DNA of 64,000 nt from Thermovibrio guaymasensis (lineage in GTDB: Bacteria; Aquificota; Aquificia; Desulfurobacteriales; Desulfurobacteriaceae), in contig NZ_RBIE01000003.1 of the NCBI RefSeq assembly GCF_003633715.1, forward strand, positions 1-64,000, written 5' to 3'. The notes below the pieces were generated by a model. It made no database searches and was not told where the DNA came from. It saw only the letters and a list, made by a program, of their open reading frames with translations. This document shows positions 1 to 40,004 of the stretch, one piece after another. Positions within the stretch are counted from its first letter, which is position 1. Each line of letters opens with the position of its first letter. The position numbers were made by a program, and so were the translations under genes.

Positions 1-7
1 TTTCACT

Positions 8-122
8 GAAAACCTGCGGAACACCTCAATTGAAAGCCTAAGTAGGCTTGCTCTCTCTCCGCAGGTGCGTGTCCCTTATTCTCCTGTCAAAGACCCTTTC
101 AGTTTCCCGCCTTCGCGGGCAT
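8..122 (-). ncRNA. Candidate small RNA unit 4 with terminator-like end
   Basis: From a start near 122 the leftward transcript would contain a GC stem CCCGC/GCGGG with a 4-nt loop (106-110 with 115-119). It then has a strong 9-bp stem ACCTGCGGA/TCCGCAGGT (12-20 with 58-66) enclosing AAGCCTA/TAGGCTT (34-40 with 43-49). On the minus strand TTTTC follows the outer stem, like an intrinsic terminator. This is the only unit with a plausible end. The downstream gene, if any, lies outside the window. Confidence 0.35.
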
Positions 123-128
123 TACTTT

Positions 129-157
129 AATTTATGCCACCAGCTTCTCCCTGTCAA
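129..157 (-). promoter_or_regulatory. Leftward promoter of unit 4 (TTGACA-17-TAAATT)
   Basis: The minus strand shows TTGACA (157-152), 17 bases, TAAATT (134-129). A further TTGACA at 90-85 has no -10 box at the right distance, so I do not count it as a promoter. Confidence 0.6.
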
Positions 158-234
158 CCCCTTTTCGGGATTTACTCCCTGATTCAAGGGGTTACAGGTG
201 CCGTGCGCTTTTAATTTAATTTCAGCGCAGGTAA
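158..234 (-). ncRNA. Candidate small RNA unit 3
   Basis: The predicted transcript is about 77 nt with two stem-loops. TGCGCT/AGCGCA pairs 204-209 with 224-229. A nested pair follows, AACCCCTT/AAGGGGTT (156-163 with 186-193), enclosing GGGA/TCCC (167-170 with 176-179). The outer pair overlaps the TTGACA box of unit 4, so folding and the next promoter share bases. No ORF is seen. Confidence 0.35.
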
Positions 235-240
235 AATTTA

Positions 241-269
241 AATTTATCCCTTCCTCACCCTCTTGTCAA
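241..269 (-). promoter_or_regulatory. Leftward promoter of unit 3 (TTGACA-17-TAAATT)
   Basis: The minus strand shows TTGACA (269-264), 17 bases, then TAAATT (246-241). This is the best match to the ideal spacing in the array, together with unit 4. Confidence 0.6.
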
Positions 270-357
270 GTCTTAAAGGCCCTCAATTGATGAAGAGCCT
301 TTTACTCAAGGGCGAGGAGCAGGCGGCCGTATTCAGCTTTGTTTTCAAAGAGCGCAA
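270..357 (-). ncRNA. Candidate small RNA unit 2
   Basis: The predicted leftward transcript is about 88 nt. Stems are CTTTG/CAAAG with a TTTT loop (337-341 with 346-350 on the plus strand) and an outer GCCCT/AGGGC pair (279-283 with 309-313). The word CTCAATTGA (plus strand, 282-290) recurs at 25-33 in the leftmost unit. No coding potential is seen. Transcription and function are inferred. Confidence 0.35.
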
Positions 358-363
358 AATGAT

Positions 364-391
364 AATTTATACCTTTCTTCGTCCTTGTCAA
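364..391 (-). promoter_or_regulatory. Leftward promoter of unit 2 (TTGACA-16-TAAATT)
   Basis: The minus strand shows TTGACA (391-386), a purine-rich 16-base spacer and TAAATT (369-364). A TATAAATT string covers the -10 region, as in the rplU promoter. Confidence 0.55.
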
Positions 392-467
392 GGGGAGAGG
401 AGCCTTTAAGGCTCATCACCTGACGGTGCCCTTTGGCACCGGTTTGGAAGCTTATTCAACTGGCGAC
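392..467 (-). ncRNA. Candidate small RNA unit 1
   Basis: The predicted transcript starts near 467 and runs left about 75 nt to the next promoter. It can form CGGTGCC/GGCACCG (424-430 with 435-441, 4-nt loop) and GAGCCTT/AAGGCTC (400-406 with 408-414). No ORF is seen. No clear U-tract follows the last stem, so the 3' end is uncertain and read-through into the next unit is possible. Seen: promoter and stems. Inferred: that an RNA is made. I recognise no known RNA family. Confidence 0.35.
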
Positions 468-472
468 AGCAA

Positions 473-500
473 AATATAGGCTATCCTCTCTGAGTGTCAA
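473..500 (-). promoter_or_regulatory. Leftward promoter of unit 1 (TTGACA-16-TATATT)
   Basis: On the minus strand TTGACA (500-495) is followed after 16 bases by TATATT (478-473). The -35 box lies inside the last codons of the RND pump gene. This is the first of four similar leftward promoters in tandem. The rplU promoter in the same window (TTGACC, 16 bases, TATAAA) has the same architecture. Confidence 0.55.
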
Positions 501-3500
501 CTCCCCTTAACCAATTTTTTATGTCCTCTATCAATGATAAGAGGACGGGGACGAAGAAGAGAGTTAGGAAAGTTCCAAGGATTAATCCTCCAATTGCAAC
601 TACCGCTAAAGGAGCGAGCCTCTCTAGACCCAAAGCCCAACCTAAGGCTATCGGTATCATTCCCACAGCCGTTCCGAAAGCCGTCATCAGGACGGGACGA
701 GTCCTTACTTTTATTGAGTTAAGAATAGCCTCTTTAACTGGTGTACCTTTATCCCTGTCCCACTTGAAAAAGTCTATTAGGAGAATTGAGTTTTTAACGA
801 TTATTCCGGCCAATAAAATCATTCCCATAAAGGAAGGCATACACTGGGGTTTATGGGCTATTAGCATTGAGATTGCTGCACCCATAAGGGCAAGAGGTAT
901 TGCTGCAAGAATTGAGATTGGGTAGGTGAAGGACTCAAAGGCTGGGACTAGTGAGAAGTAGAGGATGAGTATCCCTATTGCTAAAGACCCTATAAGCCTT
1001 TTAAAGCTCTCTCTCATCTGCTTTATTTCTCCTTCGTGGGAGATTCCGTAACCGGGTGGGAGCTCCAGGTTCCTTTCAAGCCTATTTACCTGCATCTGAA
1101 GGAAGGTTGTTGGAGCAGTTGAGCGATAACCGTAAACGTCAAGGGTATTAAGAAGGTTCTGGTGGGTTATCCTACTCTGAGTAAGGTGGTTCTCTGACTC
1201 AATAAAGTAGGAAAGGGGAACTTCTCCTCTCTTTGTAGGAATCGGAAGGAGGTTTAACTTCTGGAGGAAGTCTCTTTCATTCCGGGGAAGTATAACTTTT
1301 ATTAAGAGGCCGTTCTGGTTAGGAACTGTGAAGAGTGAAGCGTTCACTCCTTTAACGAAATTCCCCAGATAGCCAACAACCTGAAGGGGAGTTAGACCGT
1401 AATGGGCCGCTTTTTCTCCGTCCACTTTAATTAGGAGCTCCCTCTTATCGTAATACCAGCTCCTTGAAGTTGAGGTAAGTCCTTTAACTCTCTGCATTAG
1501 GTTTTCTAACTTCTCTCCCAAGGTGTTAAGGATTTTCGGGTCTTCTCCGTAGAGCATCTCATCTACTGTTGCCTTTATTGAAGAGAGGGGAGTTGCGCCG
1601 AAGTCCATAACGTTAACATACTTGAGTCTAGGAATTTTGAGGAGTTTTTCCTGAAGTCTGCGCTCAATTTCCCATATTGACTCTTTCCTGTGGAACCTAT
1701 CAACAAACTGAATTTTCATCTCTATCTGTTGAGGGGTCTTTCCGCTTCCAAAGGAAAGTACTCCCGGTTCTGAGCCGATTGTTGATGAAACCCTTATCAC
1801 TCCAGGGAAGGAGTAAAGGACTTTCTCCATCTCCGTTAAAGTCTTCTCGGTTTTCTCAAGTGAGGTATTTGCTTCAGTTTCAGCCCTTACTATCACTATT
1901 CCAGTGTCCATAGGGGGCATTAAGTCTCTTCCGAGAACAGGAATTACGTTCTTCATCGTTATTCCGAATAAGACAAAACCTAAAACTACAGTTATCAGCT
2001 TTATCCAGAAGCGTTTTAAAAAGGGTTCTGTGAGGGAGGTGTAGAAATCCCTCAACCTGTAGACGACCGCTTTGACGAAGTAATCGTAGATCTTCCTTTC
2101 AAGCCAGTTCTTATCTGGTGTCTTTTTAAGTATGTAAGGAGCAACTATTGGAATGAGGGTTACCGCAACGAAGTAGGAGACAACCAGGGCAATTATAAGC
2201 GTAAGGGATAAGGGCCTTAGTATGTGCTGTACATAACCTCCTATAAAGGCTATTGGAAGGAGCATAAAGACTGTCGTGTAGGTACCGCTGAGAACCGCGA
2301 GCATTACCTCTTTCGTTCCGTCACGGGCGGCCTGCCATATGTCCTTTCCTAGCTCAAAGTAGTGGCGCTCAATATTCTCAAGGACTACAACTGCATCGTC
2401 TGTTAACATTCCAAGCGCAAGGATTACGGCAGTTAGGGTAACTATGTTGAAGTTGAAGCCCAAAAGCCACATTAGGCCTATGGTGATTAAGTAGGTAACG
2501 GGAATGGAGAAGAAGGAGACAATCAGCATCCTCAAGTTTGCAAGGAAGATGAATATTACAAGAAGGGTCATTATTATTGCATCTCTTAATGACTCAAGCA
2601 TGTTTTTGTTTGAGAGCTCTATTAACCACTTCTGGGTATCTGCAATTTCAAAGTTGAGCTGTGGAAATTCCTTTTTTAACTTTGGAAGGTAGGCCATAAC
2701 TGAGTTAATAGTTGGAAGTTCATAGCCCTTTTCTGAGCGGAGAATGGATATTCCTATGGTCCTCTTTCCGTTTCCGTGGTATGCAGATAGGTTGTCCTCG
2801 TGTCCCCACCTTACCTTTGCAACGTCTTTAAGTTTTACTCCCGGTTTTACCGTTATCTCCTTAAGTTCCTCTATCCGCTCGGCCTCTCCCTTTAATTTTA
2901 AAGTTAGCATTCCATCTTTGTTTATTAAAAAACCTGCAGGAGCATTAATGTTGTTTCCCCTTATAGCTTCCAGTAGTTGCCCGAGGCTGACCTTTAAGTT
3001 TGCCATCTTCAAGTAATCGGGATTTACTTCAATAACCCTTTTAAAGCCACCAAACACCTCAACGTCGGAAACGTGGGGAAGGCGCAAAAGCCTATCTTTT
3101 ATCTGGTTCTCTGCGATCTGTCTCACCTGGGAAAGGGTAAGGTTGGAGCCCTCTTTAGGGTAAACTGAAATGATCATTACCGGCTTTGTAGCATCAGTTA
3201 TCTTGTAAACCTGAGGAGGGAGTATCCCTTTTGGAAGTAGCGGTATAACCCTTGAAAGCTGGTTTGACACTTCAGTTTGAGCTGCTGAGATACCTTTCTG
3301 GTACTCAAACTCGGCAACTACCACTGAAACGCCGTCCTTAGACGTTGAACGAACTTGCCTTAAGAGGCTTATACTCATAAGCCTCTCTTCAATTGGCCTG
3401 GTTACGTGTGAAGCAACGTCCTCTGCTGAAGCTCCGGGGTAGAGAGTTACTACGGCAACCTGGGGCCTGTTTGCATCGGGGAAGAACTTCCTCGGGATTT

Positions 3501-3594
3501 CTTTAAATCCTACTATCCCCAAAAGGGAGAAGAATAGTAGTACTGCTAGAACGCCGTGGGGTTTCCTTAGATAGTAATCAACGATTTTACCCAT
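481..3594 (-). CDS. RND-family efflux pump, inner-membrane permease
   Basis: Proton-driven inner-membrane pump of the AcrB/HAE1 class (1037 residues, normal length). TM1 is near residues 13-33 and the large periplasmic porter loops follow TM1 and TM7. TM4 carries the proton-relay pair in GMLTDDAVVVLENIER (about D399/D400), and a TM10 lysine sits in GIIVKNSILLID (about K933). These match AcrB D407/D408/K940. It is the last gene of a three-gene operon and overlaps the adaptor gene by 8 bases. A complete tripartite exporter is therefore encoded. The substrate (drug, metal or lipid) cannot be read from sequence. Its 3' end carries the first -35 box of the leftward promoter array. Confidence 0.93.
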   Translation of the reverse strand: MGKIVDYYLRKPHGVLAVLLFFSLLGIVGFKEIPRKFFPDANRPQVAVVTLYPGASAEDVASHVTRPIEERLMSISLLRQVRSTSKDGVSVVVAEFEYQKGISAAQTEVSNQLSRVIPLLPKGILPPQVYKITDATKPVMIISVYPKEGSNLTLSQVRQIAENQIKDRLLRLPHVSDVEVFGGFKRVIEVNPDYLKMANLKVSLGQLLEAIRGNNINAPAGFLINKDGMLTLKLKGEAERIEELKEITVKPGVKLKDVAKVRWGHEDNLSAYHGNGKRTIGISILRSEKGYELPTINSVMAYLPKLKKEFPQLNFEIADTQKWLIELSNKNMLESLRDAIIMTLLVIFIFLANLRMLIVSFFSIPVTYLITIGLMWLLGFNFNIVTLTAVILALGMLTDDAVVVLENIERHYFELGKDIWQAARDGTKEVMLAVLSGTYTTVFMLLPIAFIGGYVQHILRPLSLTLIIALVVSYFVAVTLIPIVAPYILKKTPDKNWLERKIYDYFVKAVVYRLRDFYTSLTEPFLKRFWIKLITVVLGFVLFGITMKNVIPVLGRDLMPPMDTGIVIVRAETEANTSLEKTEKTLTEMEKVLYSFPGVIRVSSTIGSEPGVLSFGSGKTPQQIEMKIQFVDRFHRKESIWEIERRLQEKLLKIPRLKYVNVMDFGATPLSSIKATVDEMLYGEDPKILNTLGEKLENLMQRVKGLTSTSRSWYYDKRELLIKVDGEKAAHYGLTPLQVVGYLGNFVKGVNASLFTVPNQNGLLIKVILPRNERDFLQKLNLLPIPTKRGEVPLSYFIESENHLTQSRITHQNLLNTLDVYGYRSTAPTTFLQMQVNRLERNLELPPGYGISHEGEIKQMRESFKRLIGSLAIGILILYFSLVPAFESFTYPISILAAIPLALMGAAISMLIAHKPQCMPSFMGMILLAGIIVKNSILLIDFFKWDRDKGTPVKEAILNSIKVRTRPVLMTAFGTAVGMIPIALGWALGLERLAPLAVVAIGGLILGTFLTLFFVPVLLSLIEDIKNWLRGVDTQRG

Positions 3595-4768
3595 TAAGCT
3601 CCTCCACAGGTATTACTCTCTTTATCCTGTAGGCTCTAAGAAGGGCACTTTCCCTTCCTACAACAACTTTCTGTCCCGGTGAAAGCCTTCCAGATACAAC
3701 TGATAGCTTAGGTGCTTCTTTTAAAACTTTGACTTTAACGGGTTTAACTTCTCCTTTCTCTATCAGGAGGACGAAAACACCCTCTTTTAAGTGGAGGAGG
3801 GAAGAAGTTGGAACTATTAGACCTTTAACTTCTCTAGTTGGAATCTCTACCTTTACCAGCTGGTTTGGTTTAAGAGTTGTATTCTTTTCAAGCTTAACTT
3901 CAAGTGTTACAAGGCCCTTAGGAGTTGCGGCCGGATAGAACTTTACTACCTTTCCCCTTTCTGCTCCGCTAACGCTAACGGTCGTTCCAACTTCAACTTC
4001 TCCGGCCTTCTCGGGAGGGAGCTCCACCAGCACCCTCATTCCCTCTTCAGGGTAAAAAACCTTCAGAAGTGGCTTTCCGGGTAGAGCCACGTCTCCCGGA
4101 TAGGCAAGAACCTGTGCAACCACTCCGTCTTTAAGGGCTACTACCTTTGTGTAGGAAAGGGAGCCCCTTAGAGCTTCAGCCTTCTCCCTAAGGCTCTTTA
4201 TTGAGTTCCTGAGCTCTTCAATTTGGGCCTTTAAACTCTTAACCTGAGCCTGTGCAGACCTGTAGAGGTTCTCAGCTTTCTCCACTGCCTCTCTCGGAAC
4301 CGCCTTTCTCTCAAAGAGGAAGAGCTCCCTTTTATACTCCCTCTCTGCATTCTTCTCCTTAACTTTAGCTGCTTCAAGTTGTGCTTCCAAACCCTTTATT
4401 AAAGAGGCCTTTGCCCTCCTCTGGCTCTCAATGGAAGCTAGGTTGTTTGAAATCTCGGAGGAGTCAATTTCAACAAGGACTTCTCCTTTCCTAAACCTTT
4501 CCCCCTCACTCTTGTAGACCTTTAAAACCGTTCCTGCAACCTTCGTTGAAAGAGTTGCATACTGATAGGGAAGGACTCTGCCGAAATAGTGGAGCTCCTC
4601 CCCTAGAGCTCCCTCTTTCACCTCTGCCCACTCTACCGGTAAAGGATTGACCTTCGGAGGAGGGTAAGAGAGTAGCTCCTTCTTCCTCTTCTCTATAAGG
4701 ACTTTCCCGATTACTGCTCCCGCTAGTATGAGAACTAAGAAAATTAGAACAGCTTTTCTACTACTCAT
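3587..4768 (-). CDS. RND efflux periplasmic adaptor (membrane fusion protein)
   Basis: HlyD/AcrA-type adaptor (393 residues) that links the RND pump to the outer-membrane factor. An N-terminal membrane anchor lies at about 6-24. The two lipoyl half-motifs (about 60-105 and 210-245) flank a long charged alpha-hairpin at about 108-205. Beta-barrel and membrane-proximal domains follow. No lipobox cysteine is visible, so it should be held by the uncleaved N-terminal helix. The ATG at 4768 overlaps the end of the upstream outer-membrane factor gene by 8 bases, and its own end overlaps the pump start, indicating translational coupling. Confidence 0.92.
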   Translation of the reverse strand: MSSRKAVLIFLVLILAGAVIGKVLIEKRKKELLSYPPPKVNPLPVEWAEVKEGALGEELHYFGRVLPYQYATLSTKVAGTVLKVYKSEGERFRKGEVLVEIDSSEISNNLASIESQRRAKASLIKGLEAQLEAAKVKEKNAEREYKRELFLFERKAVPREAVEKAENLYRSAQAQVKSLKAQIEELRNSIKSLREKAEALRGSLSYTKVVALKDGVVAQVLAYPGDVALPGKPLLKVFYPEEGMRVLVELPPEKAGEVEVGTTVSVSGAERGKVVKFYPAATPKGLVTLEVKLEKNTTLKPNQLVKVEIPTREVKGLIVPTSSLLHLKEGVFVLLIEKGEVKPVKVKVLKEAPKLSVVSGRLSPGQKVVVGRESALLRAYRIKRVIPVEELNG

Positions 4769-6041
4769 TGTTTACCTCCAGCAGGGCTTTTAACCTTTCA
4801 AGGGCGGAGAACCACTCGTAGTAAGAAGCGTTGAGGTCTGCCTGACTCTCAAACCTCTGAGCTTTTGCTAGAAGAAGGTGGTTTATATCCCCTTTCCCCG
4901 AAACGTACTTGAGTTCCTCTATCCTCTCTACTTCCTTTGCGAGCTTTAGCTTTTCCTTATCTGCCTCTAACCTTTCCTGAATTGAGTTAAGGAGTGCTAC
5001 AACCTCTGCTAGCTCCCTTTTAAGCTCCCTCTTCACGGTTTCCTGCTCGTAGAGAGCTCTCCTTACTTCAGATTCCCTCTGTAAGAGCTCAAGGCCCTTT
5101 CTCCCTCCCGTAAAGACTGGAAAGGAAAGGTTGAGGGATATTGAGCTGTAAGCTTCGTTTTCCCCAGAATCAAACCCGTACCTTCTGGTTAGAAGGCCGT
5201 TTACGGTAAACTTCAATCCGTACTTTGCCTTCGTTAGCTTCTCTTTAACCTTTGATAGTTCAACTCTGCGCTCTGCAGCCTTTACTCTGCTGTTCCTTTC
5301 AAGGAGCTCAGAGTAAAACTCCCCTATCTTCCACTCTTTAGGCTGATAGGAAAAGTGGGGAGGTTGGAGGTCTTTAACTTTTCGGCCAAGGAGCGTTTCT
5401 AAGGCTGTTAGCAGGGCCTTTTTCATCTCTCTCACTTCTTTAAGCCCGGCCTCAACTTCCCTAACTGAGTACCCTATTTTCATCAGGTCAACCGGAGCGA
5501 GCTTGCCTACCTCTACACCTGCCTTGGTGTTTTCGTAGAGCTTTTCTAGGCTTTTAAGGTGTTCCTTTAGGGCTTTCTCCCTTTCACTGAGGGAGAGGAT
5601 CTTTAAAAAGAGGGTTGTTGCGTTGAGCTTAACCTGCCAAGTTGCAGCTTTTAAGGAGTTTTTTAGGAGCTCCTCCTTAACCTTATTAAGCTCAACTTTC
5701 CTGCTTATAACTCCTCCAAGGTAGAGGGGAACTTTCAGAGAAATCCCGTAAGTTAACTTCCTGCTGTCAAAGGGAGGAGGGTTTAAGGGGTTTGGCGGAT
5801 GAAACATGGGAACTAGTATGTAGTTCCTGTTGTAGGAGGTATAGCTTCCTACAGAGTCTACTTCTCCAAACCTCTCCCTCCTGGATATTTCGGCTGAGAG
5901 AGAACTCTCCCTTACCTCCTCCCTTAAGGCCTTCAGCTTCGGGTAGTTCTTCTCTGCAAGCTCTTTTGCCTCCTTTAGGGTTAGGCCTTGAGCAGATAGG
6001 ATGGGAAGTAGGAATGCTATGAGGCTTAAAAGTATTTTCAT
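4761..6041 (-). CDS. TolC-like outer-membrane efflux protein
   Basis: Outer-membrane factor of the TolC family (426 residues) forming the exit duct of the tripartite pump. Residues 1-19 are a typical signal peptide (hydrophobic run, then SAQG). The rest is mostly long amphipathic helices in two internal halves, as expected for the periplasmic tunnel with strand-rich membrane segments. It is the first gene of the operon. An SD-like GAGG lies just upstream of the ATG. Transcription must start in the 73-bp gap shared with the divergent TauE gene. Confidence 0.9.
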   Translation of the reverse strand: MKILLSLIAFLLPILSAQGLTLKEAKELAEKNYPKLKALREEVRESSLSAEISRRERFGEVDSVGSYTSYNRNYILVPMFHPPNPLNPPPFDSRKLTYGISLKVPLYLGGVISRKVELNKVKEELLKNSLKAATWQVKLNATTLFLKILSLSEREKALKEHLKSLEKLYENTKAGVEVGKLAPVDLMKIGYSVREVEAGLKEVREMKKALLTALETLLGRKVKDLQPPHFSYQPKEWKIGEFYSELLERNSRVKAAERRVELSKVKEKLTKAKYGLKFTVNGLLTRRYGFDSGENEAYSSISLNLSFPVFTGGRKGLELLQRESEVRRALYEQETVKRELKRELAEVVALLNSIQERLEADKEKLKLAKEVERIEELKYVSGKGDINHLLLAKAQRFESQADLNASYYEWFSALERLKALLEVNNE

Positions 6042-17007: not shown

Positions 17008-17037
17008 GTTTCAATTCCTTAAAGGAGAGCTAAAAAC
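17008..17037 (-). repeat. Single CRISPR-type repeat, no array
   Basis: Read on the minus strand the 30 bases begin GTTTTTAGC and end GGAATTGAAAC. This matches the form of type I-B/III repeats of thermophiles, including the ATTGAAAC crRNA handle. No second copy or cas gene is in the window. A possible minus-strand promoter precedes it: TTGACC (17082-17077), 15 bases, TATAGT (17061-17056). Downstream comes the ligase terminator region. It may be a decayed array, an off-target acquisition site or a crRNA-like gene. Confidence 0.6.
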
Positions 17038-39803: not shown

Positions 39804-39844
39804 TTGAAAATCATTTTCATCAAATATAGAATAAAATCTATTAG

Positions 39845-39936
39845 GCCGCGGGGGTGGAGCTGGGCTCCTGAGACTCGCCCGCACCGGGCGGGAACCCCTG
39901 GAACCTGAACCGGGTAATGCCGGCGTAGGGAGCGGC
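39845..39936 (+). promoter_or_regulatory. TPP riboswitch (THI element)
   Basis: Contains the conserved CTGAGA (pyrimidine sensor) and ACCTGAACCGGGTAATGC plus GCGTAGGGA of the thi-box. The closing helix is GCCGC (39845-39849) with GCGGC (39932-39936). Just downstream CCGCTC (39948-39953) can pair with GAGCGG (39930-39935), which overlaps the 3' strand of the closing helix. A ligand-controlled terminator or sequestering switch ahead of thi4-thiC is thus plausible. Confidence 0.95.
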
Positions 39937-40004
39937 AAGAGTCTTTCCCGCTCTTTCCCTCCTTACATCCCCCGTGGAGCAACTAAACCTATTAGGAGGA
40001 ATCT

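Follow-up and report, generated by a model that had tools for sequence, protein, structure and literature searches.

Sequence evidence at the left edge of the window, a 64,000-nucleotide stretch of Thermovibrio guaymasensis DNA, indicates that positions 1-500 of the minus strand almost certainly hold the promoters and leader of an rRNA (rrn) operon, one of three, with the 16S gene lying just past position 1. Four tandem promoters, a conserved leader and its boxA can be read directly from the window (Table 1), and in relatives the leader is complementary to the 16S trailer and adjoins a 16S gene. Tandem rrn promoters are well known and are an ordinary arrangement for rRNA genes; what is mildly new here is the family-wide use of TATATT or TAAATT as the -10 box, together with additional boxA-like elements behind certain upstream promoters and inter-promoter hairpins that show covariation. 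No paper on rrn promoters of Desulfurobacteriaceae was found in the literature searched. The array is best read as an rRNA operon control region cut by an assembly gap, and should thus not be catalogued as a set of small-RNA genes.

Table 1. Features of the rrn control region and its neighbour at the left edge of the window.
Feature	Position	Strand	Description
AcrB/RND efflux pump gene	481..3594	-	Immediately upstream, same direction; neighbour, outside the rrn unit
rrn promoter P1	473..500	-	TTGACA 500-495, 16 nt spacer, TATATT 478-473
Unit 1 hairpin h1	424..441	-	CGGTGCC-AAAG-GGCACCG; 7/7 pairs, compensatory changes, 4 genomes
Unit 1 hairpin h2	400..414	-	GAGCCTTAAAGGCTC; kept in 4 genomes
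rrn promoter P2	364..391	-	TTGACA 391-386, 16 nt spacer, TAAATT 369-364
Extra boxA-like element	330..355	-	GCGCTCTTTGAAAAC...GAATA, directly downstream of P2
rrn promoter P3	241..269	-	TTGACA 269-264, 17 nt spacer, TAAATT 246-241
Unit 3 hairpin	158..191	-	CCCCTT...AAGGGG; 3' arm abuts the TTGACA of P4
rrn promoter P4	129..157	-	TTGACA 157-152, 17 nt spacer, TAAATT 134-129
Conserved 16S rRNA leader	1..93	-	Contains boxA and the leader strand of the 16S processing stem; CCTGCGG 65-59 forms a helix with CCGCAGG 19-13
rrn leader boxA	85..93	-	TCTTTGACA; within the 16S leader-trailer stem

The first-pass annotation had proposed four TTGACA boxes, each followed by a -10 box, and our coordinates for them agree, with spacers of 16, 16, 17 and 17 nt. 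The pattern TTGACA-N16-18-TA(A/T)ATT has four sites on the minus strand of positions 1-505 and no further site on either strand of the whole 64 kb window; when the 505 bp were dinucleotide-shuffled 20,000 times, a single strict site turned up in six shuffles and more than one in none. Four exact sigma70-type sites in the same direction are not expected by chance. There is also a fifth TTGACA at 90-85 that the first-pass annotation does not list; it lacks a -10 box and is a component of boxA, not a promoter. The stretch was also described as free of open reading frames, and we likewise find no credible ORF within it; the -35 box of P1 itself falls within the final codons of the pump gene. That gene belongs to an RND efflux operon encoding an outer-membrane factor, an HlyD-type adaptor and an AcrB-type pump (481-3594 and 3587-6041, both on the minus strand), which leads straight into the rrn leader, with no terminator-like site between the two. 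The same neighbourhood of RND operon and rrn leader is found in one relative (G001, locus L034).

The window begins at base 1 of contig C3, in a 1.62-Mb genome assembled as nine contigs. Positions 1-458 are repeated with 100% identity at the opposite end of the same contig and positions 1-100 with 99% identity at the end of a second contig, C1. All three leader copies face outward and stop at one same base, which is the behaviour of an assembler at a three-copy repeat; the published rrn operon count for Thermovibrio ammonificans agrees with three (PMC4227106). A 16S model was searched against 41 genomes and found 16S genes in 18; it has no match in the Thermovibrio assembly, and it recovered both copies in a single-contig relative (G005). 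Searches for 23S and 5S also returned no match in the Thermovibrio assembly, which is weak evidence on its own because the same searches missed both genes in G005.

The identity of the missing gene comes from relatives. In G002 the leader match stops at 1604473 and the 16S gene starts at 1604520, and the corresponding positions in G005 are 495014 and 495057, so that the gap from leader end to modelled 16S is about 45 nt in both; the same order is seen in three further genomes (G006, G008 and G010). The 16S gene is followed by tRNA-Ile and tRNA-Ala in G002 and G005, and by 23S in G002 and G008. Judged from these relatives and from the three contig ends that match, the expected 16S start lies about 35-40 nt to the left of position 1, so that the contig edge cuts the leader at that distance from the gene. 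The simpler of the two readings offered by the first-pass annotation, that of several promoters serving a single gene beyond the left edge, is the one that holds, and the leader adjoining 16S in relatives identifies that gene as an rRNA operon. Two other accounts of the contig ends were considered and dropped. The leader end is repeat-like and recurs three times, as a CRISPR leader might, and this idea was abandoned once relatives showed 16S there; a circular contig or an inverted mobile element, suggested by the 458-bp inverted repeat at the ends of C3, was ruled out by the end of C1 at the same base and by the identity of the elements as rrn leaders.

The leader itself carries the motif TCTTTGACAGGAGAATAAGGG, which includes the fifth TTGACA and which we take, from general knowledge of such elements and not from a model, to be the rrn boxA. 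It is little changed in all 16 distinct leaders compared, which were located by a pattern that itself includes boxA. A further copy of boxA lies just 5' of 23S in relatives. The leader strand pairs with the 3' flank of 16S in duplex folding, at -94 kcal/mol in G002 and -85 kcal/mol in G005, and a leader-trailer processing stem around 16S is thus present in both genomes; the trailer is missing from the Thermovibrio assembly. The additional boxA-like element downstream of P2 has equivalents following the corresponding promoter in six genomes, other genera among them (G001, G002, G004, G013, G018 and G021).

Taken together, these features suggest a mechanism in which the four housekeeping-sigma promoters, all of which would be expected to fire, each start leftward transcripts in parallel through the shared leader, and in which these transcripts would continue into 16S-tRNA-Ile-tRNA-Ala-23S. 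The boxA, an antitermination site, would probably recruit NusB-S10 (NusB is encoded in the Thermovibrio genome), which would modify the polymerase, while the leader would pair with the 16S trailer for processing and RNase III presumably cuts the resulting stem. Stacking of promoters in this way may serve to raise the initiation rate, and thus ribosome synthesis, from few rrn copies.

The promoter design extends across the family. All but one of 28 Desulfurobacteriaceae leaders have two to five promoters of the P1-P4 design no more than 620 bp upstream of boxA, the exception having only 57 bp of upstream sequence and a few of the records being duplicates; a counterpart of P4 stands 50-75 nt 5' of boxA in the leaders of all relatives. 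Several genomes combine one operon with a long promoter array, often behind tRNA-Gly, with another that has two or three promoters. The -10 box is TATAAT in none of the 82 family promoters, and its form varies with place: mostly TATATT at the first promoter, TAAATT or TAGATT at later ones, and mostly TATCTT before tRNA-Gly. Elsewhere in the class, the rrn operons of the other families mostly carry two to four promoters in tandem, with a -10 box that is mostly TATAAT; one genome has a single close promoter. In several genera the long rrn promoter array is preceded by a tRNA-Gly(GCC) gene (L004, at 1495-1570, and L009, L013, L022, L028, L066 and L068), which in some of these loci has its own promoter of the TATCTT type.

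Across the whole Thermovibrio genome, the strict pattern TTGACA-N16-18-TAWATT occurs 22 times, against three for a reversed control, while TTGACA with TATAAT occurs twice in the 1.6 Mb. Nine of the 22 strict sites belong to the three rrn leaders and eight stand directly before tRNA genes, giving 17 at rRNA or tRNA; two more precede genes that, from their N-termini and not from a search, we take to be rplM and rpsL. TTGACA-N16/17-TATATT or TAAATT can be read as a clean promoter signature for stable-RNA and translation genes of the thermophilic Desulfurobacteriaceae.

Comparison with known systems places the array within a familiar plan. The tandem rRNA promoters of B. subtilis (PMC7824091) and the rrn P1/P2 promoters of E. 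coli (PMC5179076) are likewise housekeeping-sigma promoters in series, followed by a leader and 16S. However, the promoters here number up to four or five rather than two, the -10 box is TATATT or TAAATT, and, in place of the A/T-rich UP elements of those two species, G-rich sequence or a hairpin directly precedes several of the -35 boxes. Mycobacterial rrn operons have two to five promoters each, the number varying by species and operon (PMC10218544), and resemble this region in arrangement, with several promoters before one operon; in contrast to them, extra boxA-like elements here also follow upstream promoters. In E. coli pre-16S RNA a leader strand is complementary to the 3' flank of 16S and the leader contains boxA (PMC10250234). 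Both features recur here, with a second, pre-23S boxA seen in relatives, but the boxA of the present leader is itself complementary to the trailer and thus falls inside the stem.

The stretch had also been called hairpin-rich, and for units 1, 3 and 4, numbered by the promoter that each follows, this stands: their folding z-scores against shuffles are -3.3, -3.7 and -2.4. Unit 2 (-0.4) does not fold beyond chance, and unit 4 contains the rRNA leader helix. Every pair of both unit 1 hairpins is intact, with compensatory changes, in four genomes (G000, G004, G001 and G002) when the stem arms, picked by eye, are compared directly; this check replaced an RNAalifold analysis of units 1 and 3 based on MAFFT alignments, in which the unit 1 hairpins were out of register and support was weak. 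At the other end of C3, the sister operon keeps the same unit 1 hairpins together with P2-P4, and a tRNA-Gly(GCC) replaces P1. Because the hairpins persist there without P1, they are leader elements and not products of P1 alone.

The hairpins and the additional boxA-like sites could point to a modular leader in the Desulfurobacteriaceae, in which polymerase would be converted to its antitermination form at successive points and released pieces may act as RNAs; we regard this as an unlikely elaboration. The related proposal of dual use, in which the rrn promoters are what they seem and the upstream units also release stable functional leader fragments, is compatible with an rrn control region and would fit both the compensated hairpins of unit 1 and the boxA-like elements behind promoters of the P1 and P2 type. 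However, the hairpins are consistent with ordinary leader folding, and we judge the proposal very unlikely.

The first-pass annotation favoured tandem small-RNA genes, with every promoter producing a separate short, structured RNA that stops before the following promoter. Better folding of units 1 and 3 than of their shuffles, and compensatory changes in the unit 1 hairpins across four genomes, are what such genes would show. However, the minus strand of positions 1-500 contains no intrinsic-terminator-like site in a scan to which Rho-dependent ends are invisible, and so no stem followed by a T-run separates one promoter from the next. An Rfam search of the promoter stretch gave no match at gathering cut-offs or at E values up to 1. 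The final unit is the 16S leader, continuous with 16S in relatives; the unit 1 hairpins occur without P1 in the sister operon, and the number of units differs from operon to operon. Matches to the units in relatives lie in rrn leaders or in leader-like contig ends, and no unit is seen conserved as a stand-alone RNA. The favoured reading finds no support in these comparisons, and we consider it extremely improbable. A protein gene or other non-rRNA gene off the left edge as the target of the promoters, with which the window alone would be compatible, has almost no likelihood, given that the leader at position 1 is the boxA and 16S-stem leader that immediately precedes 16S in several genera.

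Two Rfam matches lie elsewhere in the window, away from the rrn control region. At 17008-17037 on the plus strand there is one match, of borderline score, to a CRISPR direct repeat (RF01315; 38.0 bits against a cut-off of 37); no repeat array surrounds it, and it is probably fortuitous or an isolated remnant. A TPP riboswitch aptamer (RF00059, 78.7 bits) is found at 39840-39948 on the plus strand.
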